A stretch of 64,000 nucleotides of DNA from Anaerolineaceae bacterium (GCA_002702705.1 PABH01000029.1:1-64000); one strand, 5' to 3'. Positions 36,635 to 54,523 are shown, counted from the stretch's first letter. Numbers and translations: made by a program. The notes: generated by a model from the letters alone, not told the origin.

Positions 36635-36668
36635 CCCCCTGGGATGACTATGCCCTTTTTGTTATACT
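36635..36668 (+). promoter_or_regulatory. Element promoter A (CCCCCTGGGAT box)
   Basis: CCCCCTGGGAT at 36635-36645, 17 bases, then TATACT at 36663-36668. This box-spacing-minus10 arrangement recurs upstream of three other operons of the element (40661, 50849, 54423). The box replaces a normal -35. A dedicated activator or sigma factor is inferred. Confidence 0.65.
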
Positions 36669-36706
36669 CGTTTTAGCTGAATAATAATTAGTAAGCAAAA
36701 TCGTTG

Positions 36707-36768
36707 GTCGGATATACCTACTGGACTTGCACGCCAAATGCAAGTAGCGCAAAGAATCCGACTTTTTT
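36707..36768 (+). terminator. Leader terminator/attenuator A
   Basis: Following the shared TCGTTGG, the stem GTCGGAT (36707-36713)/ATCCGAC (36756-36762) encloses an inner ACTTGCA/TGCAAGT hairpin and ends in six T. It lies between promoter A and the first gene, so it must be read through for the operon to be expressed. Confidence 0.7.
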
Positions 36769-36806
36769 ATTTTAATTCACCCAAACGAGGTGAGACAGGA
36801 GGATCA

Positions 36807-37688
36807 ATGACCATATTAATCCCCGTGGTGGGATTGTTATGCACCACCCTGGCACTTTTATTGTGGTATCCAAAACCAACCCGGACCGGTAAACTGGCAG
36901 ATCTTTACACTGTCGATTCTGCTCGCACATTGTCGTCGCTCGACCAGAAATCGTTGGACTATAAGCTACTCGCAGCTGGATTACCAATGAAACCCGTCAC
37001 GTTTCGCCTGCTTTGTGTTGCAGCCGGATTAGGAAGTGCTGTGATCATCTGGCTATTTTTACCTGGATTACCAGCCCTTGTGGTGGGTGGAATTGTTTTT
37101 TATGTTCCAGGAGTGTGGTTGGATGATCGGGTAAAGAGCCGCGGGCGCAAAATTGACCAATTACTGCCGATCGGCATTGGCCGAATCGCTGCCGGCCTCC
37201 TGGCAGGTGGCTCAGTTCCCGATGTACTTCAACAAGTTGGGGACTCGTTGGAAATCGAAAGGACCAATCCCCTTACTCCTGAGTTCGTTCTGACGGCTTC
37301 AGAAATGCGCATCAAGGATCGTGTGGAAGCTTTACGTGGTCTGGCTTCTCGCAGTCCATCCGTCTCACTATCCAATCTTGCACAACTGCTGGAAGGGTAC
37401 ACAGAATCCGGTGGACGCGCCTATACAGGTGTCTTGATGGACATCTCAATGCGGGTTCAACAGATCCTGATTGCTCGAAATCGTGCCCAGGCGAAAGCCG
37501 GGGATTCGCTGGTTTCCGCAAAAGTCCTTCCAGCCGTCCTGGTTCTGATCCTGGTTTATCTCAGTCAGGATCCGATGGTTCGAGCATCGCTCAATGCCAT
37601 TCCTGTGCAAATTGTCATTGGGGTGACGATGGCTGCAATGGTGGCCGGGTATGTCATCATTCGATCCATGATTATGGAGGCGGTGTAA
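36807..37688 (+). CDS. tadB: TadB-like pilus inner-membrane protein
   Basis: About 293 residues from ATG 36807, with CAGGAGG upstream. It has a T2SSF-type layout: N-terminal helix (ILIPVVGLLCTTLALLLWY), a helix pair near residues 75-105 (LLCVAAGLGSAVIIWLFLPGL), a cytosolic domain with GRIAAGLLAGGSVPDVLQQV, and C-terminal helices (VLPAVLVLILVYLSQDPMV). TadB/TadC form the platform on which Flp pilins are extruded. It is the first gene of operon A, with TadC one codon away. Confidence 0.75.
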   Translation: MTILIPVVGLLCTTLALLLWYPKPTRTGKLADLYTVDSARTLSSLDQKSLDYKLLAAGLPMKPVTFRLLCVAAGLGSAVIIWLFLPGLPALVVGGIVFYVPGVWLDDRVKSRGRKIDQLLPIGIGRIAAGLLAGGSVPDVLQQVGDSLEIERTNPLTPEFVLTASEMRIKDRVEALRGLASRSPSVSLSNLAQLLEGYTESGGRAYTGVLMDISMRVQQILIARNRAQAKAGDSLVSAKVLPAVLVLILVYLSQDPMVRASLNAIPVQIVIGVTMAAMVAGYVIIRSMIMEAV

Positions 37689-38549
37689 ATGACAGCACTA
37701 ATTTACCTGACCGGAATCGCTGTGTTTGCCCTGGTGATCTACCTGACTCTCGAGCTAGCACCAGCGACACCTACCGGGCGTCTGGCTGAAACACTGACAC
37801 CTGCCGATGGGGTTGTTCTGAACGGTTGGCGCAGATCTCTCTCACCCTTAGATAAGCCAGTTTCCAAATGGACGCCGGCTGGGCTGCTGCGTCAGACTCG
37901 CGCCGATCTGTATTGGGCGCAGATTGGGGATCGGTGGAATGACTGGAATGAAGTGCAGTTCACCTCTTTGCGGGTGGCTTTGGCTGTCGCGGGGTTTGGA
38001 CTGGGAATGGTCGCAACCGGTGAACCGGTGTTTGCGTTGATTGGTAGCCTCGTTGGTTTTCAATACCCGGCTATGGCAATGGGCGGCATCGCTCGACGCT
38101 ACCGCCGACTATTCATTTCTCAACTACCGGAATATGTCCAACTGGTTTCTGCCCAGATGTCTGCCAATGTATCTATGGAAGAAGCCCTGCGGCGTACTTC
38201 TCAGGCGCAGAGCCTGGCAGGGAAGTGGATGCGACGGGTGCTACAGATGGCACAAGGCCGTGATCTGATCGAACAGATGCAGCGGGAAGCCCAAGAGGCG
38301 CATTTACCTGAACTGATCGGTATGTCGGTCCAACTAGAATTCATCCGGCGCGGCACAGCCCAACAGGAACTGATGGGGCAATTGGCCACCAGTATTGCCG
38401 CGGATTATATTGGCAGCGCCGAGCAACGCGCAGAAAAAGTAGGTTCGGAACTGGTAATTCCCATGGTAGTTTTCTATTTTCTACCCTTCCTGGTCACCCT
38501 TCTGGCTGTCATTGGCTGGCCAATTGTTCAGAATATGGGTGGAATGTGA
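37689..38549 (+). CDS. tadC: TadC-like pilus inner-membrane protein
   Basis: 286 residues. Start helix (LIYLTGIAVFALVIYLTLEL), a middle helix pair (LRVALAVAGFGLGMVATGEP), the T2SSF domain (LPEYVQLVSAQMSANVSMEEAL) and C-terminal helices (VIPMVVFYFLPFLVTLLAVI). It pairs with the TadB-like gene just upstream, starting right after its stop. Its stop shares bases with the next start (TGATG). Confidence 0.75.
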   Translation: MTALIYLTGIAVFALVIYLTLELAPATPTGRLAETLTPADGVVLNGWRRSLSPLDKPVSKWTPAGLLRQTRADLYWAQIGDRWNDWNEVQFTSLRVALAVAGFGLGMVATGEPVFALIGSLVGFQYPAMAMGGIARRYRRLFISQLPEYVQLVSAQMSANVSMEEALRRTSQAQSLAGKWMRRVLQMAQGRDLIEQMQREAQEAHLPELIGMSVQLEFIRRGTAQQELMGQLATSIAADYIGSAEQRAEKVGSELVIPMVVFYFLPFLVTLLAVIGWPIVQNMGGM

Positions 38550-39151
38550 TGCTCGCCAACTCCCTTAAATTCCTCCGGGAGCGTTCCGGTCGTTTGCGCG
38601 ATTTGGCAGGCTTTGCTTTTTTTGCTTTCGCGGCATTGGTCTCTACCGCTGCAGCATGGGATCACCCATCCGTATTTGCCTGGTTATATGCCTCCCACAA
38701 CTTTATGCTGGCGTTCTTTTATGCCCGGCGGCAGCCGGCAAAAAGGTATGATCGCACTGGTTTATGGCTGGGGATGATCGCCGCGTTTTTACCAACCTTT
38801 TCAACATCAGGAAGTGCACCCTGGTATTTGTTGGTTCCAGCTTTGGCTGGTTATGGATTGATCCTTTGGTCTTTAGTCACATTGGGAGCTCGTTTTGGAA
38901 TTGCCCCTGCAGACCGTGGATTAACATGTCAGGGTCCGTATCGCATTCTGCGCCACCCGATGTATCTGGGAGAACTGGTTTTTCGTGTGGCGATGGTATT
39001 TTGCTCTCCCAACCTGCTATTCGCGGGATTAATGGCCTTAACCCTGGTAGTTATCCAGTGCTGGCGCATTCTTCGAGAAGAAAAGATGATCGATGGATAC
39101 ACCTGTTATACCCGCGTCGTTCCCTGGCGGTTAGTACCCGGACTCTGGTGA
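38549..39151 (+). CDS. Isoprenylcysteine/phospholipid methyltransferase-like membrane protein
   Basis: 200 residues, four to five helices. The signature CQGPYRILRHPMYLGELVF and the C-terminal REEKMIDGYTCYTRVVPWRL are characteristic of the ICMT/PEMT-like membrane methyltransferase fold (RHPxY). ATG 38549 overlaps the tadC stop by one base. The substrate is unknown. A role in modifying a pilin, quinone or lipid is possible because it sits inside a pilus operon. Confidence 0.75.
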   Translation: MLANSLKFLRERSGRLRDLAGFAFFAFAALVSTAAAWDHPSVFAWLYASHNFMLAFFYARRQPAKRYDRTGLWLGMIAAFLPTFSTSGSAPWYLLVPALAGYGLILWSLVTLGARFGIAPADRGLTCQGPYRILRHPMYLGELVFRVAMVFCSPNLLFAGLMALTLVVIQCWRILREEKMIDGYTCYTRVVPWRLVPGLW

Positions 39152-39156
39152 GGCAA

Positions 39157-39486
39157 ATGCGCCAATTCTCTAACACACTTTTCGGGTTGGCTTTAGGCAG
39201 CGCCTTGATGATGAAATCCTTCGCAGTCCAGGACGAACTGGTTGGATTGGCAGTTTTCAGTGTCCTGTTATCTGCCATTCTGACCATTTTCATGCGGATT
39301 CGGTCCGTAGGAATTGCCGGGATCAGTGGTTTATCCCTCGTGTATATGAAGTTGGGTGGAAGCTCTTTACCGGCAACGATCTTGACAGTCATAACTGCTG
39401 TTTTACTATCGTCCGCAGTCCTTTTTGCAATTTATGCGGATATATCCATTTCAAAACAAGGAGAAGAAAATAAACATGAAGTTTAG
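39157..39486 (+). CDS. Small multi-helix membrane protein, unknown
   Basis: 109 residues. Three to four hydrophobic stretches: LFGLALGSALMMKSFAV, LVGLAVFSVLLSAILTIFMR, GIAGISGLSLVYMKLGG and ILTVITAVLLSSAVLFAIYA. Located six bases after the methyltransferase stop. Its end overlaps the TadZ-like start by 11 bases. It is not recognised, though operon position suggests a pilus function. Confidence 0.6.
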   Translation: MRQFSNTLFGLALGSALMMKSFAVQDELVGLAVFSVLLSAILTIFMRIRSVGIAGISGLSLVYMKLGGSSLPATILTVITAVLLSSAVLFAIYADISISKQGEENKHEV

Positions 39487-40456
39487 CCTTTCAAATTTAC
39501 TCAAAACGAATACTGAACTATCACTGGTGGTCTTACTCGGTGCTCAGAAGCCCAATCAAGATGTACTGGATGCACTCTCAAGAAACAGTGATCTAACCGT
39601 GCGAGAAGCCTTTACTACTCGTGGTGTACTTCAAGATTTGCCAGGAGTTCACCTGGTGATCCTCGATGAGCTCATTTCCCTACCGGATACATCCAATGAA
39701 GTACTTCACCGTGCGCTCGAAATGAGCAGCATCCCGATGGTATCGCAAGAAGGGTTTTTGGCTGATCCAAATGAATGGTTGAGCCGTGCTCGTTTGACAA
39801 ATGCGAAAAGAATTTCTTTTTTACCCGCGCGCCAGATCAACTTGGTGAACTGGTCAGGAGGGATTGGCAAAACCACCCTGGCGATGGCAATTTGCAAACG
39901 GTTTGTGCAGCGTACTGGACTGCCAGCAGCGCTGCTCGAACTCAGTATGGGAGGCAGTGCTTTACATGCCCGCATTACGCATGATTTACCTGAATTTTTC
40001 AGTATTGCAACTCATAAAGAAGAACCCGCGCTCTGGTATGGCGTTAGCCTTTACCCAATGGACGGGCGTACCATTGATGTGCTGTGGGGTGAAGATTCGG
40101 AAGGTGTTCGTAAGGGTTTAGCAGAGATTCGCCGTAAGCATACATTGTTTGTGGTGGATTGTTTTCCTGGTCACCCACTCTTTCCAGAGGTATCGAAACC
40201 CATGCCTGGGTTGGTCAATCTGGTCGTAACTTCCCCGCGCGACGATTCTATTTTGCAAGCCCGGCGTTTAATGAGTGAAGTATCAGAGCCTTCCCACTTG
40301 GTACTGAACATGACCAAATCTTTGGCTGATCGCACAGAGCCGGGCGTATCTGTTGTGCTTCCCTATAACGAAAACTGGGCGCAATCCTCTGACCCGCGTT
40401 TGGCAGATCCAATACTGGAACTGGTTTATAAGGGCTGGAAAGCGAAGGGAAAATGA
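39476..40456 (+). CDS. tadZ: TadZ/CpaE-like ParA ATPase
   Basis: 326 residues from ATG 39476. An N-terminal receiver-like domain (VVLLGAQKPNQDVLDALSRN) is followed by a ParA-type P-loop ATPase with Walker A NWSGGIGKTTLAMAICKRF, and a later RKHTLFVVDCFPGHP (Walker B-like). TadZ places the Tad pilus machine at its cell site. The gene closes operon A. Confidence 0.78.
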   Translation: MKFSLSNLLKTNTELSLVVLLGAQKPNQDVLDALSRNSDLTVREAFTTRGVLQDLPGVHLVILDELISLPDTSNEVLHRALEMSSIPMVSQEGFLADPNEWLSRARLTNAKRISFLPARQINLVNWSGGIGKTTLAMAICKRFVQRTGLPAALLELSMGGSALHARITHDLPEFFSIATHKEEPALWYGVSLYPMDGRTIDVLWGEDSEGVRKGLAEIRRKHTLFVVDCFPGHPLFPEVSKPMPGLVNLVVTSPRDDSILQARRLMSEVSEPSHLVLNMTKSLADRTEPGVSVVLPYNENWAQSSDPRLADPILELVYKGWKAKGK

Positions 40457-40660: not shown

Positions 40661-40694
40661 CCCCCTGGGATAAGACTTCCCAGATTGATAAACT
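40661..40694 (+). promoter_or_regulatory. Element promoter B (CCCCCTGGGAT box)
   Basis: CCCCCTGGGAT at 40661-40671, exactly 17 bases, then TAAACT at 40689-40694. It matches promoters A and D base for base in the box and in spacing. Confidence 0.65.
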
Positions 40695-40741
40695 GATAAT
40701 AGAAAACAGCCGAATATTCTTATTATTCCATTCAATCGTTG

Positions 40742-40783
40742 GCCGGACAAAACCATCAGGGTAACTTGTTCGGCTTTTTTTTT
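40742..40783 (+). terminator. Leader terminator/attenuator B
   Basis: After TCGTTG, GCCGGACAA (40742-40750) pairs with TTGTTCGGC (40766-40774) with one G-T wobble, and nine T follow. It is a strong terminator placed 21 bases before the cpaB start. Confidence 0.8.
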
Positions 40784-40804: not shown

Positions 40805-41515
40805 ATGAACCGCGTCACCCAATTCATTATTGGTTTGATCGCCATCGCATTAGCCTTGGGAGCAGGATACTACGGTCGCAATTTGTATCTCAAAGAGGTC
40901 TCCACTTACCAGGTGCCTGTGCCGGTCAATGCAATCCCTTCCTACACCATTCTCAGAGCGGATTTATTCCAGATGCGTGAAATGCCGCGCACAATGGAAT
41001 CTTTGCCTTATTACCAGTCGATCCAAGACCTGGATGGAATGATCAGCGCTGTTCCGCTTCCGGCTGGCCTGCCCATCGCACAAGTAAACGCTGTACCTGT
41101 TGCGCAGTTTCGTCTGGCAGAGGCTGAGTATGAAGTGCTTTCTATCCCAGTTGAGCCTGTATCCGCTGTGGGTGGCCAGATCCGGATAGGGGAGCACGTC
41201 AATCTTTACCAGGTATCACCAGAAAAGACTGACGCAGTTAATTCGGATAATCCAGTGAATAAGCATCCCGAGTTTACGATAGACCTCATTGCAGGCAGCG
41301 TTCTGGTTGTGGATGTGCGTAATGCACAAGGTGTGGCTGCTGAATCAGGTCAAAAAAGTGATGGTAATTCAACCTTCAACAGCAGCCCACAGACTGAGCA
41401 GGTTCAGATTCTGACATTGGCAGTAAAGCCAGAAGCAGTCAATAACATACTGAATGCTGTCGCAAACGCCAAAAAACAAGGAGGGTTGTTATGGACAACG
41501 CTAGCAACTCCGTAG
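40805..41515 (+). CDS. cpaB: CpaB/RcpC-like pilus assembly protein
   Basis: 236 residues with an N-terminal helix (FIIGLIAIALALGAGYYG) and a SAF-like domain (VPVPVNAIPSYTILRADLFQ, GMISAVPLPAGLPIAQVN) and the CpaB pattern EYEVLSIPVEPVSAVGGQIRIGEHVNLY region. CpaB stabilises the Tad machine at the membrane. It is the first gene of operon B, with AAGGAGTAAGC before ATG. Confidence 0.82.
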   Translation: MNRVTQFIIGLIAIALALGAGYYGRNLYLKEVSTYQVPVPVNAIPSYTILRADLFQMREMPRTMESLPYYQSIQDLDGMISAVPLPAGLPIAQVNAVPVAQFRLAEAEYEVLSIPVEPVSAVGGQIRIGEHVNLYQVSPEKTDAVNSDNPVNKHPEFTIDLIAGSVLVVDVRNAQGVAAESGQKSDGNSTFNSSPQTEQVQILTLAVKPEAVNNILNAVANAKKQGGLLWTTLATP

Positions 41516-42825
41516 GCAAAACATTACAACCTCCGCTGGTGCATCCACTGGATCAGAATGATTTGAAACTGATCGAACGCGTTCGTGAAGAACTGGTTAA
41601 GCGAGGTATAAACCCACCTTCCTGGCGCGAAACCGATCCAGAAAAACGTCGTCGCTTCTTTGATGAAGTCCGTTCAATCCTCATCGACCAGGGTGAAAAC
41701 CGTACAGCGGTTAACCGAAATGCTCAAATTGTTACGGACGCCTTATCAGGTGTTGGCTTGCTGGATCAACTTCTCCGCGATCCGTATGTGGAGGAGATCT
41801 TCGTTCGTAACGGGCATGTGGCGGTCGAATATGATGGGACTTTCCACCATCTGGGAAAACTGGCAGATGATAGCTATTTCGAAAACCTTGCCGTTCATGT
41901 TGCCGATCAAGGTGGGGCTACCCTGCGTGGCGACCGTCCGGCTGTTCTGATTGACCTACCAGGTGGGGAACGCTTTACAGCGATCGTTCCGCGTCTGTCC
42001 ACAGAGGGAACCGCTATTAATATCCGTACATTTGGCCGGCGGGTACGAACCCTGGAAGAGATGGAAAAGACCGGGACCTTTACCAGGCGTAATCTTTCTT
42101 TGTCCGGAACTCTGACTGATATTTTTAACCCCGAACAACAAGTCCGTATCCAGAATCTGCAAAATGCCCCTGATCGATTTCTAGCCTGGCTGGTAGCTAC
42201 TCTATCTGGGAGTCTAATGATTGCCGGGGAAATGGGATCTGGAAAGACCACCTTGTTAAATGCTTTATCAGGGTTTTTACCTACGACTTCACCCTTAGCT
42301 GCCCTGGAAACTTTTCGCGAGTTGGAAATCCAACATCCTTTTTTACTGCGAGCTGTTGCTCCTGCCGAACTTCCACCAGGAACTCCGGGAGTATCGCTGG
42401 ACTGGGTGCTGAATGTCATTTATACCCGCATGAATCCGGCTGCCATTCTGGTGGGAGAGGTTGTGGGACCTGAAGCATTACAGTTCTTGAAAGCAACCTG
42501 CCTGGGGCGAAAAGCACTTACTACTATCCACGGTGGAACTGTGGAAGAAGCTTTAATGCGCCTGGAGCAACTGGCATTGGCCTCCGCTCCGGAATTAGGG
42601 TTGGACGCTGTCCGTTCTATGGTGGCCATGGGGTTGGATGTAGTTGCTTTAATGGGGCGGGTCAATCAATCCGGTCGTGTTCAACGCACCCTGCAAGCCA
42701 TTGCCGTGATTCAAGGATTGGATGAGCATGGAAATTATTGCTTGAATTATCTGTATCGAGCAGAGGGCGAGCAGAGTGTGCCAGTTTTTGAAAAAGCATT
42801 CCAAATCATGGAGGAATTGGAATGA
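41491..42825 (+). CDS. tadA: TadA/CpaF-like pilus ATPase
   Basis: 444 residues. Secretion ATPase of the CpaF type: N-terminal domain with LLDQLLRDPYVEEIFV, Walker A GEMGSGKTTLLNALSG, Walker B-like ILVGEVVGPEAL and TTIHGGTVEEALMRLEQ. It powers extension of Flp pili. The start at 41491 overlaps the cpaB stop by 25 bases and follows AAGGAGGG. Confidence 0.92.
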   Translation: MDNASNSVGKTLQPPLVHPLDQNDLKLIERVREELVKRGINPPSWRETDPEKRRRFFDEVRSILIDQGENRTAVNRNAQIVTDALSGVGLLDQLLRDPYVEEIFVRNGHVAVEYDGTFHHLGKLADDSYFENLAVHVADQGGATLRGDRPAVLIDLPGGERFTAIVPRLSTEGTAINIRTFGRRVRTLEEMEKTGTFTRRNLSLSGTLTDIFNPEQQVRIQNLQNAPDRFLAWLVATLSGSLMIAGEMGSGKTTLLNALSGFLPTTSPLAALETFRELEIQHPFLLRAVAPAELPPGTPGVSLDWVLNVIYTRMNPAAILVGEVVGPEALQFLKATCLGRKALTTIHGGTVEEALMRLEQLALASAPELGLDAVRSMVAMGLDVVALMGRVNQSGRVQRTLQAIAVIQGLDEHGNYCLNYLYRAEGEQSVPVFEKAFQIMEELE

Positions 42826-43478
42826 ATCGGAAGATTATAAAACAAGTATTGATCATCTTGGCGTTTTATATTCTGATTGGGATTGTCTTTGGATTAACCA
42901 GGTTGAAAAGATCGGCACCCATAGATCCTGTTCCTACTCCGATAGAGGTGGCAGAGGATCTTCTGCAAGAAAATCAAGAAATAGAGTTCAAGCTGCGTAA
43001 CGCACCCTGGCAAGGGCTGCGCTATATCAGCGGACAAAAAGAATGGCGCTTTTATGGTGTTGCCGGAGAAACCAAGCAGATTGACTTAATCGATCCGATG
43101 AAACTGGTGAAAGTATATTATCTCGAATCAGATGGTGATATCAGTTTCACCTGGGTGACAACAGAAATTCAATTTCCAGGCAAACCGGTCCTTTCACTCG
43201 CAGCTCAACCTATTCAAGAGGACCAGTTAATCGCTGTGCAACTCAAAGGTGATTATGTCAACCAGAACGGCGTGTTCTGGGAGGACTGCGATTCGGATTA
43301 CTGCCACCTGGCGCAGATGATTGACACCATCCTTGTGCTGGATGACCAGGGTACCGGCATCTCCAATGGCTTCATCCGTTATGGTTGGGAGCCACCAACT
43401 TACCCGATGTACGGTTTCCTGTGCTGGCAGATTGAACTTGCATATCCTCTGCAGGGGTTCGTTTCAATTTTGAATTAG
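42822..43478 (+). CDS. Membrane-anchored protein, unknown
   Basis: 218 residues. One N-terminal helix (IIKQVLIILAFYILIGIVFGL) followed by a ~190-residue extracytoplasmic domain rich in Trp, Asp and beta-type patterns (WRFYGVAGETKQIDLIDPM, DISFTWVTTEIQF, QNGVFWEDCDSDYCHLAQ). Its start overlaps the tadA stop by four bases. The family is not recognised; the setting suggests a Tad accessory such as a TadD/TadG-like pseudopilus or scaffold protein. Confidence 0.65.
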   Translation: MNRKIIKQVLIILAFYILIGIVFGLTRLKRSAPIDPVPTPIEVAEDLLQENQEIEFKLRNAPWQGLRYISGQKEWRFYGVAGETKQIDLIDPMKLVKVYYLESDGDISFTWVTTEIQFPGKPVLSLAAQPIQEDQLIAVQLKGDYVNQNGVFWEDCDSDYCHLAQMIDTILVLDDQGTGISNGFIRYGWEPPTYPMYGFLCWQIELAYPLQGFVSILN

Positions 43479-43486
43479 GAGGGTGT

Positions 43487-43870
43487 ATGCAACCTTGCGA
43501 AACCATACAAATCATCCCACTACGGGAGTATGTCGAACATCCTATCCCTCATATGATTCTCTATTGCCCAGTCTGTGGGGTTTCGTATAAATTGTCCTCA
43601 TCTCACGTGCTGCGAATTTTGGATAAATACAGGCAAGTTCTTCACAATAGCACATGCCAAATGTTGGCTTCACAGAAATTTGAAATTGATCCAGAGGAAT
43701 TACATCAGTTAGTTTGGGAAATCCCTGTTGCCGAAATCGCTAACCTGTATGGTGTTTCCAAAAAGGTCGTTGAAAAGCGTTGTCGAGCATTCGGGATTCC
43801 AAAACCCTCGCGAGATTATTGGTCAAAATCAGAAAGTATCAGAGAACTTACACTGGAGGACCAGGGATGA
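43487..43870 (+). CDS. HTH and Cys-containing small protein
   Basis: 127 residues. The N-terminal part has LYCPVCGVSYKLSSSHVLRI with a CxxC pair. The C-terminal half has an HTH (LVWEIPVAEIANLYGVSKKVVEKRCRAFG, about residues 80-110). It is preceded by GGAGGGTGT and ends by overlapping the next start. A small regulator of pilus genes is plausible. Family unknown. Confidence 0.6.
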   Translation: MQPCETIQIIPLREYVEHPIPHMILYCPVCGVSYKLSSSHVLRILDKYRQVLHNSTCQMLASQKFEIDPEELHQLVWEIPVAEIANLYGVSKKVVEKRCRAFGIPKPSRDYWSKSESIRELTLEDQG

Positions 43871-44754
43871 CTGCTTTTCGTTTCATGATCGATGCCGGTG
43901 CAGTTTTTCTGGCTGCCGGCATCTTTCTCACACTTTATAACCTGTTGTTAACCAGTGTCGAAGTCATTATTCGGATCTGGCGGAAAACATTTGTCAGTTG
44001 GGCAGGCCGCCGGTTGCGTGATATGGGCGTTATACAGGAAAAACCTTTCCGGGCGCAGGTCGAATTAGATTGGAAACGATTGGTTTTGTTGATTGCAATC
44101 CCAGTAATAGCTCTGGCAGTCCATGATTTCATGTTATCCCCTTTTGTGCTCCTGATTGGCCTGGTAATTCTGATCTGGGTGGATTTTCAAAAACGTCAGA
44201 TCGAGCGTGCCCAAATCAATGAAGATGCGGAAGTTGTTGCGTTGCAAATCCGATCTTTGATGAGTGTTGATCGTTCGATCTTAAACGGATTGACCAGGGT
44301 AGAGCTACCAATAGGGATTATGAAACACGCTATTGAGCAGGTTGCCAGTCGTTTGCGGATGCATCAACCACCAGAACAGGCTGCTCAAACATTCAAAGGT
44401 CTTCCAGGAAATGTCACGGCCAGATTGTCTGCTTTGATTGCCCATAGTGCTCAACTGACAGATCAAACCCAGGATGGGCTTCTCGTTTCTTTAGAACAGG
44501 AAGCTCATCGGCAAAAACTTCTTCGTTCAAAGACGCACCAGACACTTTCCTTGGTGCGTGGCACGATCCGTCTTTTACAAGGTGTTGTGGCTGGAGCTAT
44601 CTCATTTGTTGTACTTTCTCCAGCCTGGCGAGATTTTTTTCTACAAGACATTTCTCATCGTGTGTTGTTGGCGGTCTTAATCTGTGCATCAGCGCTGGCC
44701 AGCCTATATTTTGAGTATGAAGTCTATCAGTTGAGTTACGGGGAGGGAGCCTGA
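43867..44754 (+). CDS. Second TadB-like membrane protein
   Basis: 295 residues from ATG 43867. Helices at MIDAGAVFLAAGIFLTLYNLLL, LVLLIAIPVIALAVHDFML and LLIGLVILIWVDF come before a cytosolic domain. C-terminal helices (VVAGAISFVVLSPAW, VLLAVLICASALASLYFE) follow. The topology matches TadB/T2SSF more loosely than the 36807 gene. It ends by a shared base with the next gene. It forms a second B/C pair. Confidence 0.6.
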   Translation: MTAFRFMIDAGAVFLAAGIFLTLYNLLLTSVEVIIRIWRKTFVSWAGRRLRDMGVIQEKPFRAQVELDWKRLVLLIAIPVIALAVHDFMLSPFVLLIGLVILIWVDFQKRQIERAQINEDAEVVALQIRSLMSVDRSILNGLTRVELPIGIMKHAIEQVASRLRMHQPPEQAAQTFKGLPGNVTARLSALIAHSAQLTDQTQDGLLVSLEQEAHRQKLLRSKTHQTLSLVRGTIRLLQGVVAGAISFVVLSPAWRDFFLQDISHRVLLAVLICASALASLYFEYEVYQLSYGEGA

Positions 44755-45888: not shown

Positions 45889-45906
45889 TATCAACCATTA
45901 ACACTC

Positions 45907-45935
45907 CGCTTCCTCTGTAAAAGTGCAGAGGAGCG
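45907..45935 (+). repeat. Intercistronic hairpin 2
   Basis: CGCTTCCTCTG and CAGAGGAGCG pair almost completely (one bulge) around seven bases, just before the Flp pilin ribosome site. Confidence 0.6.
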
Positions 45936-45955
45936 TTCCAAGGAGAGGAGGAATT

Positions 45956-46102
45956 ATGTTGCATGATCGAAATGGACAGAGCGTTGTTGAGTATATCGTT
46001 GTCCTGGCGATCTTCATCGCTCTTGTTGGCGGCGCACTCTGGGAAGTCTTTTCCACTTTAAAGGTCAAGTTCAATGATGTCAACGCCGAAATTGGGTCTT
46101 AA
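45956..46102 (+). CDS. flp: Flp-type pilin
   Basis: 48 residues: MLHDRNGQSVVEYIVVLAIF, then a hydrophobic helix and a short tail (STLKVKFNDVNAEIGS). The G-QSVVEY junction with Glu five after the cleavage Gly is the classic Flp prepilin signature, cut by a TadV-type peptidase. ATG 45956 is preceded by AGGAGAGGAGG. Its end overlaps the TadE-like gene by 29 bases. Confidence 0.85.
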   Translation: MLHDRNGQSVVEYIVVLAIFIALVGGALWEVFSTLKVKFNDVNAEIGS

Positions 46103-46520: not shown

Positions 46521-47056
46521 TCCCATTACCTTTAAAAGCTTTTACTGGAAATGGGATGATTATTGAAAGAAAAGCACAATCCGCAGTGTGGGGATTATTA
46601 TCCATCCTCGTGCTTGTAGTGATTGCAGGTGGGCTCGTGGATATTTACCGGCTGTATGCGGCACGTAATTGGGCTTATTCTGTCGCGCAAGAGGCTGCAC
46701 TTGCAGGAGCATCCCGAGGAAGGGACTGGGATGCTGTTCTCACTACTGGCTTTATCCAACTAGATCAAGCCGTGGCCAGTAATGAAACCCAAAACGTAGT
46801 TACTTCTGCTATGCAAGCGCGCGGAATTATTGGGTACACCTCGTCAATTCGGGTTCTGCCTGATCCTTTTGGAGGAACGATTTCCGGATTTCCGCCTCGT
46901 CCAGTTCGCTTGGGAAATGGATTAAGTGATTGGTCTAGTAATGAACCTGCTGTTGGAGTCTATTTGGAGGTTCCAATCCAATGGACGATTCTAAACATTT
47001 TCGGAATCGAATTGAAAACCGTTCGGGTATTTGCATCCGCTGGGGTTGTCCAATGA
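46517..47056 (+). CDS. TadE/G-like pseudopilin
   Basis: 179 residues. IERKAQSAVWGLLSILVLVVI and AGGLVDIYRLYAARNWAYSVA (TM plus start of the pseudopilin domain) resemble TadG/TadE. Starts inside the end of the previous gene and ends overlapping the next start. Location and length support a minor pseudopilin. Confidence 0.65.
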   Translation: MIPLPLKAFTGNGMIIERKAQSAVWGLLSILVLVVIAGGLVDIYRLYAARNWAYSVAQEAALAGASRGRDWDAVLTTGFIQLDQAVASNETQNVVTSAMQARGIIGYTSSIRVLPDPFGGTISGFPPRPVRLGNGLSDWSSNEPAVGVYLEVPIQWTILNIFGIELKTVRVFASAGVVQ

Positions 47057-48867
47057 AAAAATTTATCTTAAATCTGATGAAGCGTAAGAAAACACTTCTG
47101 GGAATTATCCTCGCCATCGTGATTGGTTTGGTGATCACGATCTCTGCGCTGGCTGATTATGGCCATCCTGTCGTTTCCTATAATCCAAATCCCGTTTCGA
47201 TCACGTTCCCCAGAGCTGGAAGAATTGTATTATGGAATGTCATCACCTCAAGCTCACCGGGGTATTTTTCACGCTATTACTTCATCCGTAATGGCTGCAG
47301 AGTAGGTCAGAACTGCACCTATATGGATGTGATTAACAATCAAACTGTGCTGACCCCGATCACAGTTGCAGCTGGTGAGACGATCCAAATCAGAGGTTGT
47401 GATTGTTATGGAGGCAACTGCGGTTCGGGGGGATGTGCTAACCCCCATGTGGGTTGGAAAACGCCACACCATGATAATTTTTGTGCAAGTTATTTTTATT
47501 CACAATATTATGACCCGAATGCAGGTGGTAGAGACTTTACTAGTTTAATGACAGCATTTCTTGCATCCGGAGACACAATTATTGGTACCCCGCAGTGTTG
47601 GGGGGATTGGGATGAGGATAATGCAAATGGCCGATATGACCATGATTTTGAAGATTTCGTCTTAATCTGGGCTTATCGTGACACTTTTACTGGCTACCAT
47701 GACGGAGCCTCTGGAACAGTGCCTCAATCCCAATGTCGGGCTTACGGCTGGGTGATGCAAGATGCCGCTCCAGGGTTGGATATTAATTACCGCATCCTGG
47801 TAGATGGCAATTCGGTAGCGAGTGGAGTCGCTAACCAATATCGAGCGGATCTGACCGGAACATGCACGAGCGGCACTTGTGGGTTCACTCAAGATTTATG
47901 GGGATTGATCTCGCCCAATGTTCAACACACCATACGCGTTCAGGGTCAAAATCCCTATAATTCCTCCTGGTTTGATCTCTCAGGAACAAATAAAACGATT
48001 CGGTGCTCACTCCCGCCCAGCGTGGATTTAAAAGTGAATAACCAGGATGGAACAATCCGCCTGACTTCTCCCGCTCAATATTTGTTGAGTTGGACATCCA
48101 GTAATGCAGATACCTGTACTGCCTCAGGAAGCTGGACTGGAACGAAGGGTCAGTCCGGCTCGTTAAATTACTCCGGCATAACCACTGGAAGTTACACTTA
48201 TACGTTGACATGTGCCAATCCCATTGGTTCCGCATCAGATAGTGTCACTGTCATTGTCTACAATCCACCCGCAGTGGATTTGAAGGTTAACAACACCGAT
48301 GGTCCTCTGACATTAATTTCTCCCGCAAACTTTACCCTGAGTTGGATCAGTCGCGATGCGACCAATTGTTCAGCAGTCAGCTCAAATGGCAGCTGGGTTG
48401 GGAATGTGGTCTTTGCTGGAAATCAGCCTATGAGTGGAGTCCCGACTGGAACGCACACCTATACAATCACCTGTTCTAATCAGTATGAAACTGCTAGCGA
48501 TTCAGTCACGGTTATTGTGATTGCACCACTTCGCGGGACAATAGCGGTCACATATGCGCGTTTATTGTTATTTGCTCCTAGCCTGGATCAACCCGCACAG
48601 ACCCTAACTGGAGAGGTAACAGGTGGTGTTCCACCTTATTCTATTTTGGTGCAAGTTCGGGCACCATCGGGAGCTCAATTTTCTTTGAACCGCAATGGCT
48701 CAACCTGGTCTGTGACTCCTGAGAATTCAGGAGATCTCAATTTTGGCACCACAGAAGAGGGTATCTGGACCGCATGGGCTGATTTGTCGGATGATTTTGG
48801 CCAGACATATCGAACACCCAGCGTAGTTTGGGAGGTGGCATGGCATCCCGTGCATGGTCGCCCGTAA
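47053..48867 (+). CDS. Large secreted protein with Ig-like repeats
   Basis: 604 residues from ATG 47053, overlapping the upstream stop. An N-terminal helix (TLLGIILAIVIGLVITISALA) may be a signal or anchor. The middle is Cys-rich and hydrophilic (NGCRVGQNCTYMDVI, CDCYGGNCGSGGCANP). Two tandem Ig-like repeats follow (VDLKVNNQDGTIRLTSPAQY and VDLKVNNTDGPLTLISPANF, each ending SDSVTVIV), then a third beta domain. This could be a pilus tip adhesin or a surface-exposed partner. The family is unknown. Confidence 0.7.
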   Translation: MKKFILNLMKRKKTLLGIILAIVIGLVITISALADYGHPVVSYNPNPVSITFPRAGRIVLWNVITSSSPGYFSRYYFIRNGCRVGQNCTYMDVINNQTVLTPITVAAGETIQIRGCDCYGGNCGSGGCANPHVGWKTPHHDNFCASYFYSQYYDPNAGGRDFTSLMTAFLASGDTIIGTPQCWGDWDEDNANGRYDHDFEDFVLIWAYRDTFTGYHDGASGTVPQSQCRAYGWVMQDAAPGLDINYRILVDGNSVASGVANQYRADLTGTCTSGTCGFTQDLWGLISPNVQHTIRVQGQNPYNSSWFDLSGTNKTIRCSLPPSVDLKVNNQDGTIRLTSPAQYLLSWTSSNADTCTASGSWTGTKGQSGSLNYSGITTGSYTYTLTCANPIGSASDSVTVIVYNPPAVDLKVNNTDGPLTLISPANFTLSWISRDATNCSAVSSNGSWVGNVVFAGNQPMSGVPTGTHTYTITCSNQYETASDSVTVIVIAPLRGTIAVTYARLLLFAPSLDQPAQTLTGEVTGGVPPYSILVQVRAPSGAQFSLNRNGSTWSVTPENSGDLNFGTTEEGIWTAWADLSDDFGQTYRTPSVVWEVAWHPVHGRP

Positions 48868-49808
48868 TCCGAATTCTACTAGTCGCCCTTACCGTGATGA
48901 CCACTGCCAGTTGGGAAACAACATCTGTGAAGGCTGACAGTGGTGGAACCTGCCAGATGGCTTATGGCTTAACCCCAATAGCAATTCCTGATTGGTTAAT
49001 GCCCGTGAGCGGGAACACGAACCTAGCCACTGCCAACCGTTATGATGTTTTGGCTGCTGAGTTATTGACCTCCGGATTAGTCGATGGTGCTATCTGCCCA
49101 GCACAAGGGTTGAATCCTGATGGCTCTGCAAATGGTTGTGGAATCGAACTTGCTAAAGACCAGGTGCTCACATGGCAGAATCAATTTGACTCGGTGATTC
49201 TCTCTTCTTCTCAGGCTGCAGAGTTACCCCCAAAGGTAGTTAAAGCTGTCATTGCCGTTGAATCGCAATTCTGGCCAGCGGCAAATTGGACTCTGGGTGA
49301 GATTGGATTGGGTCAGATGACCATATATGGTGCAGACCTTGTTTTGATGTGGCGGCCGGCTTATTTCCAAACCATTTGCCGGCAAACATACGGTGAAGTA
49401 GGGTGTACTACCCAATATCAATTCCTAGATTCTTCAACGCAATACTTATTACGCGGAATGGTTTTACGGGATATCGAGGCCACCTGCCCGAATTGTCCAG
49501 GGGGTGTTGATCTTGAAAAAGGAAACCAAGCGATACGAGTTCTGACTGAAACCCTCAATGCAAGTTGTTTGCAATCGACCAGGATTTTCAATCTGGCAAC
49601 CGGCAAACAACCAGCTGCGATTTTAAGTTATGACGATTACTGGCGTCTGGTTCTAGCAAACTACCATGCCGGCGCTGGGTGTGTTTATCAAGCTCTTCGA
49701 AAAACCGGAAATCCGAACAGTTGGAATAGCATTGCAGCCAATTTTTCAAGCGGTTGTGCAAGTGGCGCTGAATATATTCGACGGATCGAAGGGCAGATCA
49801 AGCCGTAG
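48840..49808 (+). CDS. Lytic transglycosylase-like protein (SLT)
   Basis: 322 residues. Signal peptide (IRILLVALTVMTTASW). The SLT core is KVVKAVIAVESQFWPAANW with the catalytic Glu, LGEIGLGQMTIYGADL and LANYHAGAGCVYQAL. Extra Cys are consistent with secretion. Such enzymes open peptidoglycan for passage of pili or secretion machines. Start overlaps the Ig-repeat gene. Confidence 0.82.
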   Translation: MASRAWSPVIRILLVALTVMTTASWETTSVKADSGGTCQMAYGLTPIAIPDWLMPVSGNTNLATANRYDVLAAELLTSGLVDGAICPAQGLNPDGSANGCGIELAKDQVLTWQNQFDSVILSSSQAAELPPKVVKAVIAVESQFWPAANWTLGEIGLGQMTIYGADLVLMWRPAYFQTICRQTYGEVGCTTQYQFLDSSTQYLLRGMVLRDIEATCPNCPGGVDLEKGNQAIRVLTETLNASCLQSTRIFNLATGKQPAAILSYDDYWRLVLANYHAGAGCVYQALRKTGNPNSWNSIAANFSSGCASGAEYIRRIEGQIKP

Positions 49809-49821
49809 AAAAAGAGGTGTT

Positions 49822-50388
49822 ATGGATTGGATTATTTTTGGCCTTGTTGTAACCTGGTTGGGAATCGTATCTTGGTTCGATATTCGAAAAAGTGAAATAC
49901 CTCACAGCGCATGGGTGGTTATTCCTCTTATTGGCGCAGGTCTTTATCGAATCTTGCAGGGAGACTGGACATTAGTCCTACTTGCTGCTGTAGTTGCTGC
50001 TGTTAGTGAACGGTATAGGATATCTAAAGCATTTGGCTGGGAAGAATTAAGCCGAATAATCACCTGGCTCCCATTGCTATTTTTGGGGGCATTCCTCTCG
50101 ATTCAATCTTCACCACTTTCAGCTTTGGCAATCATTGGCTTCTGGGCAGCCTGGGAATTGAAGTGGTGGGGTGGCGCGGATGCCGTCAGTGCAATTACGA
50201 TCTGTCTTATCTGGCCAGGGATTTTCTTTATCATATCTTTTCTGGTTATTCACCTAATCGTTGTGATTGTTTCGGGATTAATTTCAGTGATTCGGGAACA
50301 GAAAATTAAGCTTCACCGTGTACCGGGTTTGCCGATATTGTTAGCCTCGGTATTAATCTTGAAAGTAGGGATAATTATTTTAGGCTAA
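49822..50388 (+). CDS. Type IV prepilin peptidase (TadV/CpaA-like, A24)
   Basis: 188 residues from ATG 49822. Six to seven helices. The two catalytic Asp are in WFDIRKSEIPHS and WGGADAVSAITI. TadV-like peptidases cleave Flp prepilin and pseudopilins after Gly. It is the last gene of operon B. Confidence 0.85.
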   Translation: MDWIIFGLVVTWLGIVSWFDIRKSEIPHSAWVVIPLIGAGLYRILQGDWTLVLLAAVVAAVSERYRISKAFGWEELSRIITWLPLLFLGAFLSIQSSPLSALAIIGFWAAWELKWWGGADAVSAITICLIWPGIFFIISFLVIHLIVVIVSGLISVIREQKIKLHRVPGLPILLASVLILKVGIIILG

Positions 50389-50403: not shown

Positions 50404-50796
50404 TTATGCCTTTGTGTTCAATACAAAACTTTCGATGTCTTCCTCTCTTACGCGGACTACTTTACCAAATCTCACAACTGGTATTTCACCAGTTCGCATC
50501 AACCGATAGGCACCGGATTTGCTTATTCTTAGATATTTCGCTACTTCCTCGGCTTTCAGTAGCCGTTTTTGAGGATATGTGGGAGGTGTAGCTTTTTCTA
50601 CGGGAGTTTTTTCAGCGGCTTGGTTTGGAATAACCCGAAGTAGATTCTTAACCCCTCGCCGTTCACGTAATTCGCCCACCTTTTCACCAAGAGCCCACAG
50701 CAAGAACTCATTGAGAGTGATTCCCTCGACCTTTGCGTAAACTTCAATTTCCTTTATAAGTTCGTTCGGAATGATTACTTCCACTTTATGTATCAT
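50404..50796 (-). CDS. Excisionase-like DNA-binding protein with ribbon-helix-helix-like N-terminus
   Basis: 130 residues from ATG 50796, with GGAGG four bases upstream. Residues 1-50 (VEVIIPNELIKEIEVYAKVEGITLNEFL) resemble a ribbon-helix-helix domain. The C-terminus is an excisionase-type HTH (LLKAEEVAKYLRISKSGAYRL, GEIPVVRFGKVVRVREEDIE). It is the only leftward gene inside the pilus region and is divergent from operon C, so it is a good candidate to regulate the shared promoters or excision. That role is inferred. Confidence 0.78.
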   Translation of the reverse strand: MIHKVEVIIPNELIKEIEVYAKVEGITLNEFLLWALGEKVGELRERRGVKNLLRVIPNQAAEKTPVEKATPPTYPQKRLLKAEEVAKYLRISKSGAYRLMRTGEIPVVRFGKVVRVREEDIESFVLNTKA

Positions 50797-50848
50797 CAAA
50801 CCTCCATGACAACGGGAACAGTGGCTGTTACTCCCATCAAGAAATTGG

Positions 50849-50881
50849 CCACCTTGGATAACTTCATTCCGTCATTATAAT
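50849..50881 (+). promoter_or_regulatory. Element promoter C (degenerate box)
   Basis: CCACCTTGGAT (50849-50859), 16 bases, then TATAAT (50876-50881). It differs from the CCCCCTGGGAT box at two positions but has the same layout and is followed by the same TCGTTGG hairpin. Confidence 0.55.
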
Positions 50882-50911
50882 TATTAATAGACAATCTTTG
50901 ATTAATCGTTG

Positions 50912-50949
50912 GCTGGACAGAACCTTCTGGGCGCAGAAGTGAGTCCAGC
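50912..50949 (+). terminator. Leader terminator/attenuator C
   Basis: After TCGTTG, GCTGGAC (50912-50918) pairs with GTCCAGC (50943-50949) with an inner CTTCTG/CAGAAG hairpin, then CTTTAATTTTT. Same arrangement as the other three leaders. Confidence 0.65.
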
Positions 50950-50997
50950 TTTAATTTTTAAGCACTTGCACTGATGCAGAATGGATAGGAGCGCCTT

Positions 50998-51498
50998 CTG
51001 ATCGCTACTTTCGCCGTTTTAACCCTGTTTTTTGCCTGTATGGTCTACGATCTCCGCAACCACCAGGTCCCCACACCATTAACCGTTGGCGGGATGGTTG
51101 GTGCAGGTTTGTATGCCCTTTTCAACGGCTTATGGGCTCCAGTATTGTTGATGATTGCATTGACACACGTATCAGATTTCAACCCCCGAGAAAAACGTCT
51201 GGCATTCGCCCTCACGTTGTCCGTATTTTCTGCAATTTTTCAACCTTCAGCGGCGTTGATTTGCCTTCTTATCCTTGTCGTGTGGGTACTTTGGGAATTT
51301 GGTGTTTTAGGAGGTGCGGATGTCAAGCTGATCATTACTGCTGCCCTGGTTCTTGGAAATCCAATTTTTCTGATCCCGATAACAGTTGTCGGTGGAGTGC
51401 AGGGCGTAATCGCGAGCCTTCAGAAAAAGAGGGAAATTCCTTTTGTCGTATCAATTTTTTGTGGGACATTGTTGTTCGTTCTCTATCCATATTTCTAA
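50998..51498 (+). CDS. Second type IV prepilin peptidase (A24)
   Basis: About 166 residues if it starts at CTG 50998, where AGGAG lies six bases upstream; the first ATG at 51040 would omit the first helix (LLIATFAVLTLFFACMVYDL). The active site Asp residues are in YDLRNHQVP and GGADVKLIITAAL. It is the first gene of operon C and presumably serves the pilin at 51521. An ATG upstream at 50982 is out of frame. Confidence 0.75.
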   Translation: MIATFAVLTLFFACMVYDLRNHQVPTPLTVGGMVGAGLYALFNGLWAPVLLMIALTHVSDFNPREKRLAFALTLSVFSAIFQPSAALICLLILVVWVLWEFGVLGGADVKLIITAALVLGNPIFLIPITVVGGVQGVIASLQKKREIPFVVSIFCGTLLFVLYPYF

Positions 51499-51520
51499 AG
51501 AAGGAAGGAGGTGATTGGCA

Positions 51521-51667
51521 TTGCGTTTCCTAAATGATAACCGGGGAATTGAGTCGACTGAGGTCGCATTGATCATTGCGGTGGTTGTTCTGGTGGCTTA
51601 TGGTGCATATCGGTTGCTGGGTCAAAATATCGCTGCCATCGTGACTGATATTGCTGGAAAAATATAG
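51521..51667 (+). CDS. Small Flp-type pilin 2
   Basis: 48 residues beginning at TTG 51521, with a near-perfect AGGAGGTGAT ribosome site. RGIESTEVALIIAVVVLVAY has the G-x4-E pattern of Flp prepilins, followed by a short helix and tail (GAYRLLGQNIAAIVTDIAG). It lies directly after a prepilin peptidase. Too short for usual gene callers. Confidence 0.78.
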   Translation: MRFLNDNRGIESTEVALIIAVVVLVAYGAYRLLGQNIAAIVTDIAGKI

Positions 51668-51747
51668 TCAAATCAATGGTCTGCCAGCAATGCTCCCTTC
51701 GGGGATGTTCCATAAACTGGCAGATCAATTATTCCTCAAGGAGGATT

Positions 51748-52158
51748 ATGAGGTTTATTAAAGACACTCGTGGGATGGAATTGCTTGAGGCTGCAATTAC
51801 AACTCCAATTGCGATCATGGTCATGTTGGCGATAGTTAACCTGGGGATGTTAGTCTATGCCCAACAGGCAGTGCAAGCCGCTGCCAGGCATGGTGCGCGC
51901 ATGGGAAGTGTGGCGCAGCAATGTCCAGCCTGTTATGCCATGAGTGGAGCAAGAGACGCAATCGCCCAGGCTGGGATTCTGGAAAATACTTCGGTCAGTG
52001 TCTTGGCTCCTGGAGGAAGTGCCGGCAGCATTTTAAAGATCCAAGTCAGCGGCAGTGTACCCAACTTCATGGCTCCTCTGACCAGCCTGTTCCCTGGATT
52101 GCCAGGGCAGACGTTTACTGTCCGTGCCGATTCTACATTTCGGCAAGAAGGCTGGTAA
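51748..52158 (+). CDS. TadE-like pseudopilin 2
   Basis: 136 residues from ATG 51748 after AAGGAGGAT. The TadE signature is MELLEAAITTPIAIMVMLAI followed by YAQQAVQAAARHGARMG. A Cys pair (QQCPACYAM) is seen. It belongs to operon C with the second pilin. Confidence 0.75.
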   Translation: MRFIKDTRGMELLEAAITTPIAIMVMLAIVNLGMLVYAQQAVQAAARHGARMGSVAQQCPACYAMSGARDAIAQAGILENTSVSVLAPGGSAGSILKIQVSGSVPNFMAPLTSLFPGLPGQTFTVRADSTFRQEGW

Positions 52159-52159
52159 T

Positions 52160-52594
52160 ATGCTGTGGCGAGATCGGCGTGGCTATTCAATGACTTTCTG
52201 GGCGGTATTCATTGGGTTGGTGATGATTCCTGCCCTGGCATTGGCTATTGAACTCGGACGGTATTTTTATGCCATTTCAGAAGTGGCAAAGGCAGCGGAT
52301 GCTGCGGCAGTTGCCGCTTCCGCTGAGATCAATCAGCAAGTTTTTCAAGATACCGGAAGTCTTGTTCCCACTTCAAGAACCTGGGGGAACGCTCAGGCTT
52401 ATGTGACTTCAAATACAGCCAGCTTATCCGCAAAAGGGGTGCATGCCTTTGTTACAGGAATTCAGGTCAGCGGGGGAGACAACACGGTACGGGTCTCTGT
52501 GTCAGCAGATTTATCTATCCTGTTTCCGTCTGTGGTGCCGGACATACTGGTAACACAGACTGGGGTGGCAAGATTGAGGGTGATGACACATTGA
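52160..52594 (+). CDS. TadG-like pseudopilin 2
   Basis: 144 residues from ATG 52160. RRGYSMTFWAVFIGLVMIPAL then ELGRYFYAISEVAKAADAAAV is typical of TadG/TadE-type proteins with a helix and Ala-rich continuation. It is the last gene of operon C. Confidence 0.7.
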   Translation: MLWRDRRGYSMTFWAVFIGLVMIPALALAIELGRYFYAISEVAKAADAAAVAASAEINQQVFQDTGSLVPTSRTWGNAQAYVTSNTASLSAKGVHAFVTGIQVSGGDNTVRVSVSADLSILFPSVVPDILVTQTGVARLRVMTH

Positions 52595-52990: not shown

Positions 52991-53590
52991 TTATATTTTG
53001 TCTTCCATAGAAATTTCTTTTTGTGCTTTTCTGATTTGAAAAACCATTGGCCCGGCCATCGCGCCAATAGCTAGAACAAGACCGATCATATGCGCACTTA
53101 CCGGAACCAGATTATGAGATGCGAAATAGTAAATTGTATAAATGCTCACCGGTAAATTCAAAAATACGCTCACAATCATTCCTGGATTATATAATTTCTT
53201 ACTTTTCACCGCGGATATGAGATGTGGAAGAGCAGCAATTAAAGTGAAGTAAACCACATACATGCCCCATGATAAGCCCATTAGGGTAGCAAGTGCTGCC
53301 ACAAATGGAAAGCCGATAAAAATAAAAGGAACATTAACCCAGAATCCTGCTTTTTTTAGTGCATAACTGACTTCATGCCCTTTTCCTACTAACATTTCAG
53401 TCATCATTTCGGGAAATCCACCTGGAAAAATAAATTCTTCGAATTCATGTAACAAATACACCGGAACATGCAGCCATATCAGGAATAGCGCCAAGCCCTC
53501 TTTGTAAACAAATAAGAAAATAAACAACAGCGAGTATATTGCGACAAATATCGTTGCTTTGTACCAATTATTAACTAACCATTTCATCAT
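52991..53590 (-). CDS. HXXEE-domain membrane protein
   Basis: 199 residues, about six helices. The HXXEE motif is in VYLLHEFEEFIFPGGFPEMM, and a second conserved set follows (NVPFIFIGFPFVAA, LPHLISAVKSKKLYNPGMI). The family is of unknown function and often adjacent to TetR regulators. It is divergent from the TetR gene at 53718, probably regulated by it. Its AT-richness, relative to neighbours, suggests a cargo acquired from another source. Confidence 0.8.
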   Translation of the reverse strand: MMKWLVNNWYKATIFVAIYSLLFIFLFVYKEGLALFLIWLHVPVYLLHEFEEFIFPGGFPEMMTEMLVGKGHEVSYALKKAGFWVNVPFIFIGFPFVAALATLMGLSWGMYVVYFTLIAALPHLISAVKSKKLYNPGMIVSVFLNLPVSIYTIYYFASHNLVPVSAHMIGLVLAIGAMAGPMVFQIRKAQKEISMEDKI

Positions 53591-53717
53591 GATAGATCAT
53601 CCTTTCTTCTGGTGGCTGGCATTGTTTTTATCCGACACATGTATTATTATAATGTGGCGAAAGCAGAGACACAACCGACAATAATCAAATTTATGTTGAA
53701 TAATTTGGAGGATTAGA

Positions 53718-54332
53718 ATGAATCCGCATGACTTACGGTACAAAAAAGCAGAAGTCGTGATAGTAGACACATTTATTGAATACATAAAAAGTACTGAATT
53801 CGAAAAGGTTACAGTCAAAGAAATAATTGAACGTGCTCAAATCAACCGCAGCACCTTTTATGCCCACTATTCTGATAAGTATGAGCTGCTTGATCGTATA
53901 GAAAATGACCTGCTTAAAAATTTGGTTGAGGTAATTAATCAGGTTCCGATTGACCAGGCAATTAAAGACGAATCATCCATGGAAGGAGCAATGCTAAGTT
54001 ATGCAAAAAGCATAACGGACTTTCTGCATAGCAACGGGAAACAGTTTACACTTCTACTTGGAGATAATGGCAGATCTGAGTTTACTGTAAAATTCAATAG
54101 ATTAATACAAGAAACTTGGGTAAAAAAGAATCTGACTGAAAGACTTACTATCCCATCAAATTATGCTTACGCTGTTTTCTCAGGTCTGATAACAAACCTC
54201 ATAACAGAATGGGTAAAAAGCGGATTTAAGGAATCTGATGAAGAATTCATACAAATAGCAATGCAAGTCACAAGGGATATGCCGAGTAAGCTTTTCAAAA
54301 AACAGGAAATGGATATTACAGGCAAAATGTGA
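53718..54332 (+). CDS. TetR-family regulator
   Basis: 204 residues. The N-terminal HTH is IEYIKSTEFEKVTVKEIIERA and QINRSTFYAHYSDKYELLDRI, the standard TetR domain. The rest is a ligand-binding helical domain. It is divergent from the HXXEE gene with 127 bases between, the usual arrangement of repressor and target. AT-rich codon use is unlike the pilus genes. Confidence 0.85.
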   Translation: MNPHDLRYKKAEVVIVDTFIEYIKSTEFEKVTVKEIIERAQINRSTFYAHYSDKYELLDRIENDLLKNLVEVINQVPIDQAIKDESSMEGAMLSYAKSITDFLHSNGKQFTLLLGDNGRSEFTVKFNRLIQETWVKKNLTERLTIPSNYAYAVFSGLITNLITEWVKSGFKESDEEFIQIAMQVTRDMPSKLFKKQEMDITGKM

Positions 54333-54422
54333 AATTATATTGATTTATCTGTATCGCAATATCTGGTGTCAGCTTTCGAAGCTGCTCCTATTTCATGCCA
54401 TCTTTCAGGAGCAAAATATTGT

Positions 54423-54456
54423 CCCCCTGGGATAAGGGCGAGACTGTTGCTATACT
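54423..54456 (+). promoter_or_regulatory. Element promoter D (CCCCCTGGGAT box)
   Basis: CCCCCTGGGAT at 54423-54433, exactly 17 bases, then TATACT at 54451-54456. Identical to promoter A in box and -10. It drives the DNA-processing module. Confidence 0.65.
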
Positions 54457-54491
54457 GTAAATAATAAACAACCATCTTTTTTCTATCGTCA

Positions 54492-54523
54492 GCCGGACAA
54501 TTCCAACTGGAAATCTGTCCGGC
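54492..54523 (+). terminator. Leader terminator/attenuator D
   Basis: Following TCGTCA, GCCGGACA (54492-54499) and TGTCCGGC (54516-54523) pair perfectly, with an inner TTCCA/TGGAA hairpin, then ATTTTAAATT. It precedes the SSB-like gene by 25 bases. Confidence 0.65.

Follow-up and report, generated by a model that had tools for sequence, protein, structure and literature searches.

Four operons of a putative mobile element in the DNA analysed here (64,000 nucleotides of an Anaerolineaceae genome, below called the window) are each preceded by a common promoter signal and by a leader with a terminator-like hairpin. We think it probable that these operons belong to an element-wide regulon, in which a putative activator would act at the −35 position and termination would be conditional in each leader.

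Promoter boxes and −10 elements

Read directly, the four modules (A to D, all on the plus strand) have the same order: box, −10 element, AUCGUYRG, a G+C-rich hairpin with a T-run, ribosome-binding site and gene. Box A (CCCCCTGGGAT; 36635–36645) occupies the −35 position, 17 bases from the −10 sequence TATACT (36663–36668). The same box is found at B (40661–40671) and D (54423–54433), again 17 bases from the −10 sequences TAAACT (40689–40694) and TATACT (54451–54456), respectively; these three positions and the exact spacing are as given in a first-pass annotation of this DNA. Box C (CCACCTTGGAT; 50849–50859) lies 16 bases from TATAAT (50876–50881). It had been described as degenerate, which it is not: CCACCTTGGATAA, the copy C box with its 16-base spacer, is a consistent variant, and the same or a close variant is found before the same gene in relatives. 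As the variant box stands before orthologues, copy C is a regular member of the family.

The exact 11-base CCCCCTGGGAT has three copies in the 5,885,093-base genome, which are promoters A, B and D (reversed control, 0). As a result, no exact copy lies outside the element's promoters, and all three are in the window. When two mismatches were allowed, the box was not enriched in the window (22 found versus 17.7 expected). At two mismatches the box is therefore at chance frequency, and the signal is the whole module rather than the box by itself.

The 37 distinct copies differ very little in CT-GGAT of the box, which is followed by AA; their −10 element is TATACT or TATAAT, often with TGN in front. 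The box, −10 element and leader are conserved, in contrast to the flanks 5′ of the box and to most of the spacer. The conservation table has 39 rows and includes two chance matches (L189 and L192) that slightly dilute the counts. Recent duplication of a single functionless module was rejected, since copies within one element differ outside the box, −10 element and leader.

Distribution of the module

Of 147 genomes from the same family, 17 contain the box, −10 element and ATCGTYRG in this order, at 34 places in total; the reversed-pattern control gave none. The hairpin pattern, searched without the box, was found in 13 genomes (control, 0). Most of the genomes compared are metagenome assemblies. 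We built a covariance model (R1) from 29 leaders (alignment A1) of the type present in the window, termed family 1. The model matched exactly eight copies in the window's own genome, with E-values of 1e-10 to 1e-5, and none elsewhere in that genome. Four are the window's leaders, and four lie in a second related element (contig C71), in the same order and before the same four genes.

With strict filters, the window's own genome was the sole match in a class sample of 396 genomes (this one and 395 others), the known carriers of the family lying mostly outside that sample. Leptolinea tardivitalis YMTK-2 and HGW-Chloroflexi-3 are among the named hosts of the module. Two modules nearly identical to those of HGW-Chloroflexi-3 are also present on a contig assigned to Micrarchaeota (L027, JAHKLX010000091.1), which is probably mis-binned. 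Most contig matches to a loose box pattern lay outside the Anaerolineaceae and were treated as chance. A viral origin was rejected: among 27 pattern matches in IMG/VR, the two with a box (L015 and L016) had no leader hairpin by eye, and 25 hairpin-pattern matches gave no convincing match to the model (best E 0.38).

Leaders of family 1

Leader A (AUCGUUGG, then a terminator-like hairpin with a long loop and a T-run) lies at 36700–36768 (covariance model E 9e-6). The hairpins and T-runs of leaders B, C and D lie at 40735–40783 (E 8e-10), 50904–50957 (E 1e-8) and 54485–54528 (E 3e-9; folding z −4.8), respectively, all on the plus strand. From 5′ to 3′, a family-1 leader is made up of an invariant AUCGU, YRG, the 5′ arm GCCGGAC, a loop with ACC-NN-CWGG, a stretch of variable length (some 5–40 bases) and the 3′ arm with its U-run.

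Pairing is kept in 97.6% of cells when the outer stem and the inner pairs are taken together. Five of the eight outer stem pairs have changed on both sides, a number that was matched in none of 500 shuffles and is above all slides too. The earlier observation that the hairpins differ in sequence yet keep their pairing by compensated changes is thus borne out. While the stem covaries, AUCGUYRG, the 5′ arm and the loop are kept as sequence. Conservation does not extend past CUGG, which would fit recognition of the nascent RNA, or of the non-template strand, at a time when the terminator is still incomplete. A U-run is found 3′ of the stem in every aligned copy of this family and of the second family described below; in leaders C and D, this run is either short or broken (UUUAAUUUUU, AUUUU). 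The combination of a conserved G+C-rich stem and a U-run in the 5′ leader, by which intrinsic-terminator attenuators are recognized, is present.

A hidden antiterminator was rejected for family 1, since comparison of pairing with shuffled leaders gave a competing segment in none of 37 leaders. Ribosome-mediated attenuation was rejected too: with ATG starts considered, 36 of 37 leaders have no ATG between the predicted start and the hairpin, and none is conserved that could begin a leader peptide. At the gathering score, Rfam gave no family or riboswitch match to the leaders, the sole match being a tRNA in L206, and at E ≤ 1 there was one sub-threshold match, located elsewhere. For the window's four leaders, which have no competing segment, attenuation is plausible as judged from sequence.

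A second family of leaders with this promoter

In Leptolinea and in genome G020, leaders of another type follow boxes located near the element. The pattern of this second family, searched without the box, gave 21 locations spread over 17 of 147 genomes, against 1 in the control, and all 19 distinct leaders had an upstream box (with up to two mismatches) and a −10 element. Because the search pattern omitted the box, these leaders are an independent route to the same promoter. They precede DnaB, or an HTH_17 protein and a tyrosine integrase (excisionase-integrase); in G020 the integrase-type copy adjoins a tRNA gene. A third subtype (model R2), with two copies in the window's own genome (on C61 and C46), precedes an operon encoding a VirB4-like ATPase (weak AAA_10) and CpaB-like, TadZ-like and TadA-like proteins. 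The regulon is therefore wider than the first-pass annotation proposed, taking in the integrase-excisionase, DnaB, primase and VirB4-like operons.

Genome G075 is nearly closed, and a region of 44 kb in it contains the leaders of DnaB and of the VirB4 operon as well as leaders C and D. Genes for ParA, an actin-like protein and a DnaA-N-domain protein are interspersed with these leaders or adjacent to them. This clustering supports a mobile element of conjugative type, among whose genes a relaxase was not identified. Directly 5′ of the boxes before the DnaB, primase-like and VirB4-like operons there is also a family of predicted membrane or secreted proteins of ∼155 residues (60–67% identity; L275 14762–15229 and 2091–2546, L132 4688–5137, L206 15246–15701, L277 and L278), possibly an exclusion or immunity protein.

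Family-2 leaders contain segment 1 (GGUCGCU), segment 2 (AGCGACC) and segment 3 (GGUCGCU or GGUCGUU), followed by a U-run. Segments 1 and 2 paired better than in shuffled leaders in 24 of 29 cases, a count to which ascertainment contributes, GTCGCT being part of the search pattern for most of these leaders. In all of the aligned copies, segment 2 also pairs with segment 3. The antiterminator pairing is almost invariant, and covariation is silent on it. An attenuator design with segments 1 and 3 competing for segment 2 is well supported by the arrangement of the segments, termination itself being predicted. Attenuators of the trp type share this plan of three segments, the outer two of which compete for the middle one ahead of a U-run. 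The second family differs from these in that reading by eye gave no conserved leader peptide, there is no Rfam match, and control would span a mobile element rather than one biosynthetic operon. Common to both families is AUCGUNRG beside the terminator, for which the third subtype has AUCCUUGG or a similar sequence; this motif is likely to be a recognition site.

Gene content of the operons

Gene labels rest on profile matches, and all four operons are on the plus strand. Operon A (36807–40456) contains the 36807 ORF, a T2SSF-like gene (37689; weak), a PEMT/ICMT-type methyltransferase (38546), an ORF (38764) and a ParA/TadZ-like gene (39425). The 36807 ORF has no Pfam match, and its earlier label of tadB was not confirmed. 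Operon B (40805–50388) encodes CpaB/RcpC, a TadA-type ATPase, a Zn-HTH protein (43487), two small pilin-like ORFs, TadE, a TadG-like protein, an SLT lytic transglycosylase and a prepilin peptidase-like protein. Operon C (50998–52594) encodes a second prepilin peptidase, with a possible CTG start judged from sequence, and two TadE/TadG-like proteins. Operon D (54549–60634) encodes a conserved 174-aa protein (54549), Rad52, SSB, two small proteins, RadC, a 144-aa protein and DnaN. The 54549 protein had been called SSB-like; this is a resemblance only, as it has no Pfam or PDB match, and its structure model is of low confidence (pLDDT 40). It also had no match among plasmid relatives.

Between the 54549 gene and Rad52 there is a non-coding stretch of ∼580–620 bases (55074–55655) that is conserved in most of the elements compared. 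Its structured part (55150–55560, plus strand; folding z −5.9) has a branched stem closed by GGAGGATCAC/GTGATCCTCC with a T-run, and two further hairpins lie beside it. No Rfam family matches the stretch, which may act as an internal terminator or a transfer origin or encode a non-coding RNA.

At the element's end (63118–66415, running into L123) is a methylase-helicase of DUF6094 type, for which distant plasmid homologues were found. It is split by a frameshift here and intact in relatives, so this copy of the element may be decaying. Directly 5′ of promoter A is a DDE transposase (35536–36537) with no common element genes beyond it, which suggests a truncated element end. Cargo varies between the conserved core operons (52991–54332, 50404–50799 and 60697–61719 in the window; also L126, L130, L132, L133 and L136–L138), examples being a Fic protein (L126), a pPIWI_RE defence island (L132) and a restriction-type nuclease (60697 in the window). 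The cargo positions appear to be fixed slots.

Candidate regulators

The first-pass annotation proposed that one regulator, together with attenuation or processive antitermination, controls the pilus and DNA-processing genes, and it pointed to the 50404 protein. The common promoter signal, which is confined to the element and precedes both pilus and DNA-processing operons, and the leader with its covarying terminator-like hairpin favour this proposal in part, but the distribution of the named protein does not. The 50404 gene (50404–50799, minus strand) encodes an accessory HTH_17 protein divergent from box C. It adjoins box C in this way in several genomes and is absent there in L126, L130, L137, L138 and L139. 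Since several elements with the module thus lack the gene beside box C, we rejected its product as a necessary regulator.

A chromosomal NusG paralogue is present in 70 of 147 genomes. At E ≤ 1e-12 it is absent from 4 of the 17 module-bearing genomes (G020, G049, G075 and G162), and it was rejected as an antiterminator of the LoaP/RfaH type on this ground. The Zn-ribbon and HTH protein of the pilus operon (43487–43870; 37–59% identity) evolves faster than its neighbours, and elements with an operon B encode it there. The candidate factors left are this protein, the Zn-finger protein 57614, and the HTH_17 paralogues of the integrase operon and near dnaB.

Discussion

In the regulon that we consider probable, a putative activator would bind the CCNYCTDGGATAA box at the −35 site, 16–17 bases 5′ of a good −10 element. 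The box ends where a −35 element would, which suggests that the activator substitutes for the −35 contact. From the position and conservation of the box, this activator would fire all of the element's promoters together upon induction of the element. The first ∼60–130 nt of each transcript would carry AUCGUNRG directly 5′ of the terminator-like hairpin and U-run, and many transcripts should halt at the leader unless a second signal lets polymerase pass. In family 2, an upstream copy of the terminator's 3′ arm would pair with its 5′ arm in the manner of an attenuator. In family 1, the conserved flank and loop (AUCGUYRG and ACCNNCWGG), both single-stranded, point to a trans-acting factor that would recognize them directly. 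With two keys needed for expression, the costly transfer genes would stay silent while the element is integrated.

The hairpin might instead be a passive insulator or partial terminator against read-through from upstream cargo, with the box alone being regulated. The cargo just 5′ of boxes C and D does differ between elements, and Tn916 carries an insulating terminator, T1 (PMC11658703). However, the promoter sits 5′ of the hairpin, so that a passive terminator would cut short the transcript of its own operon as well; AUCGUYRG and the loop sequence are conserved beyond what a terminator requires; and family 2 has a competing segment. We consider this explanation unlikely. Processive antitermination, with the leader loading a factor or itself being a polymerase-modifying RNA that passes terminators along the operon, has precedents in the conjugation operons controlled by conAn (PMC8955417) and canT (PMC11658703), and the branched structure between 54549 and Rad52 in operon D is terminator-like. 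It seems to us improbable, as there is no excess of terminators within the operons (25 found versus 20.1 expected, both strands scanned), the leader element is the terminator itself, and no component like those of conAn, LoaP or canT was recognized. We would give little credence to a post-transcriptional hairpin, acting as a 5′ stabilizer or as the site for a translational regulator or small RNA. The hairpin is in the 5′ untranslated region near the ribosome-binding site, but that site is outside the conserved structure, and the U-run 3′ of the stem, kept in all aligned copies of both families, also argues against such a role.

Conditional termination under a common promoter box has partial parallels in known systems. 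In pLS20-type conjugative plasmids, conAn is a protein and RNA pair by which more than 20 terminators are passed in one long operon; the likeness is antitermination at the start of the conjugation operons of a mobile element (PMC8955417). Here, in contrast, a terminator-bearing leader is repeated at many operons with a common promoter box, and no ConAn1-like protein was recognized; conAn is set apart on its description. Tn916 also has ICE genes under termination and antitermination control at the RNA level (canT and T1), but canT is a single RNA acting in cis on one operon, with no common promoter box described (PMC11658703). The structured stretch of ∼400 nt in operon D is similar in size to the 452-nt canT fragment (PMC11658703). 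LoaP, a NusG paralogue, recognizes a UNCG hairpin 5′ of the terminator, and in the dfn system, as here, a recognition element adjoins an intrinsic terminator and one factor would serve several operons (PMC12691694). The difference is that 4 of 17 module-bearing genomes lack the NusG paralogue.

A bolder reading, which we hold only tentatively, is a new class of attenuation regulon with a putative RNA-binding antiterminator. A factor reading AUCGUNRG beside the terminator would then control nearly every operon, with functions in excision, replication, the pilus and recombination, through two hairpin designs behind one box.

In the literature searched, we did not find the control of conjugative elements in Chloroflexota described. 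If the proposed regulon is correct, one box and two leader designs would define it, and the module would be a sequence tag by which these elements, along with the genes they carry, could be located in genomes of uncultured organisms. A direct search for the putative activator and antiterminator would be possible in a cultured host, Leptolinea tardivitalis YMTK-2, and the element would be one whose every major operon bears its own conditional terminator.
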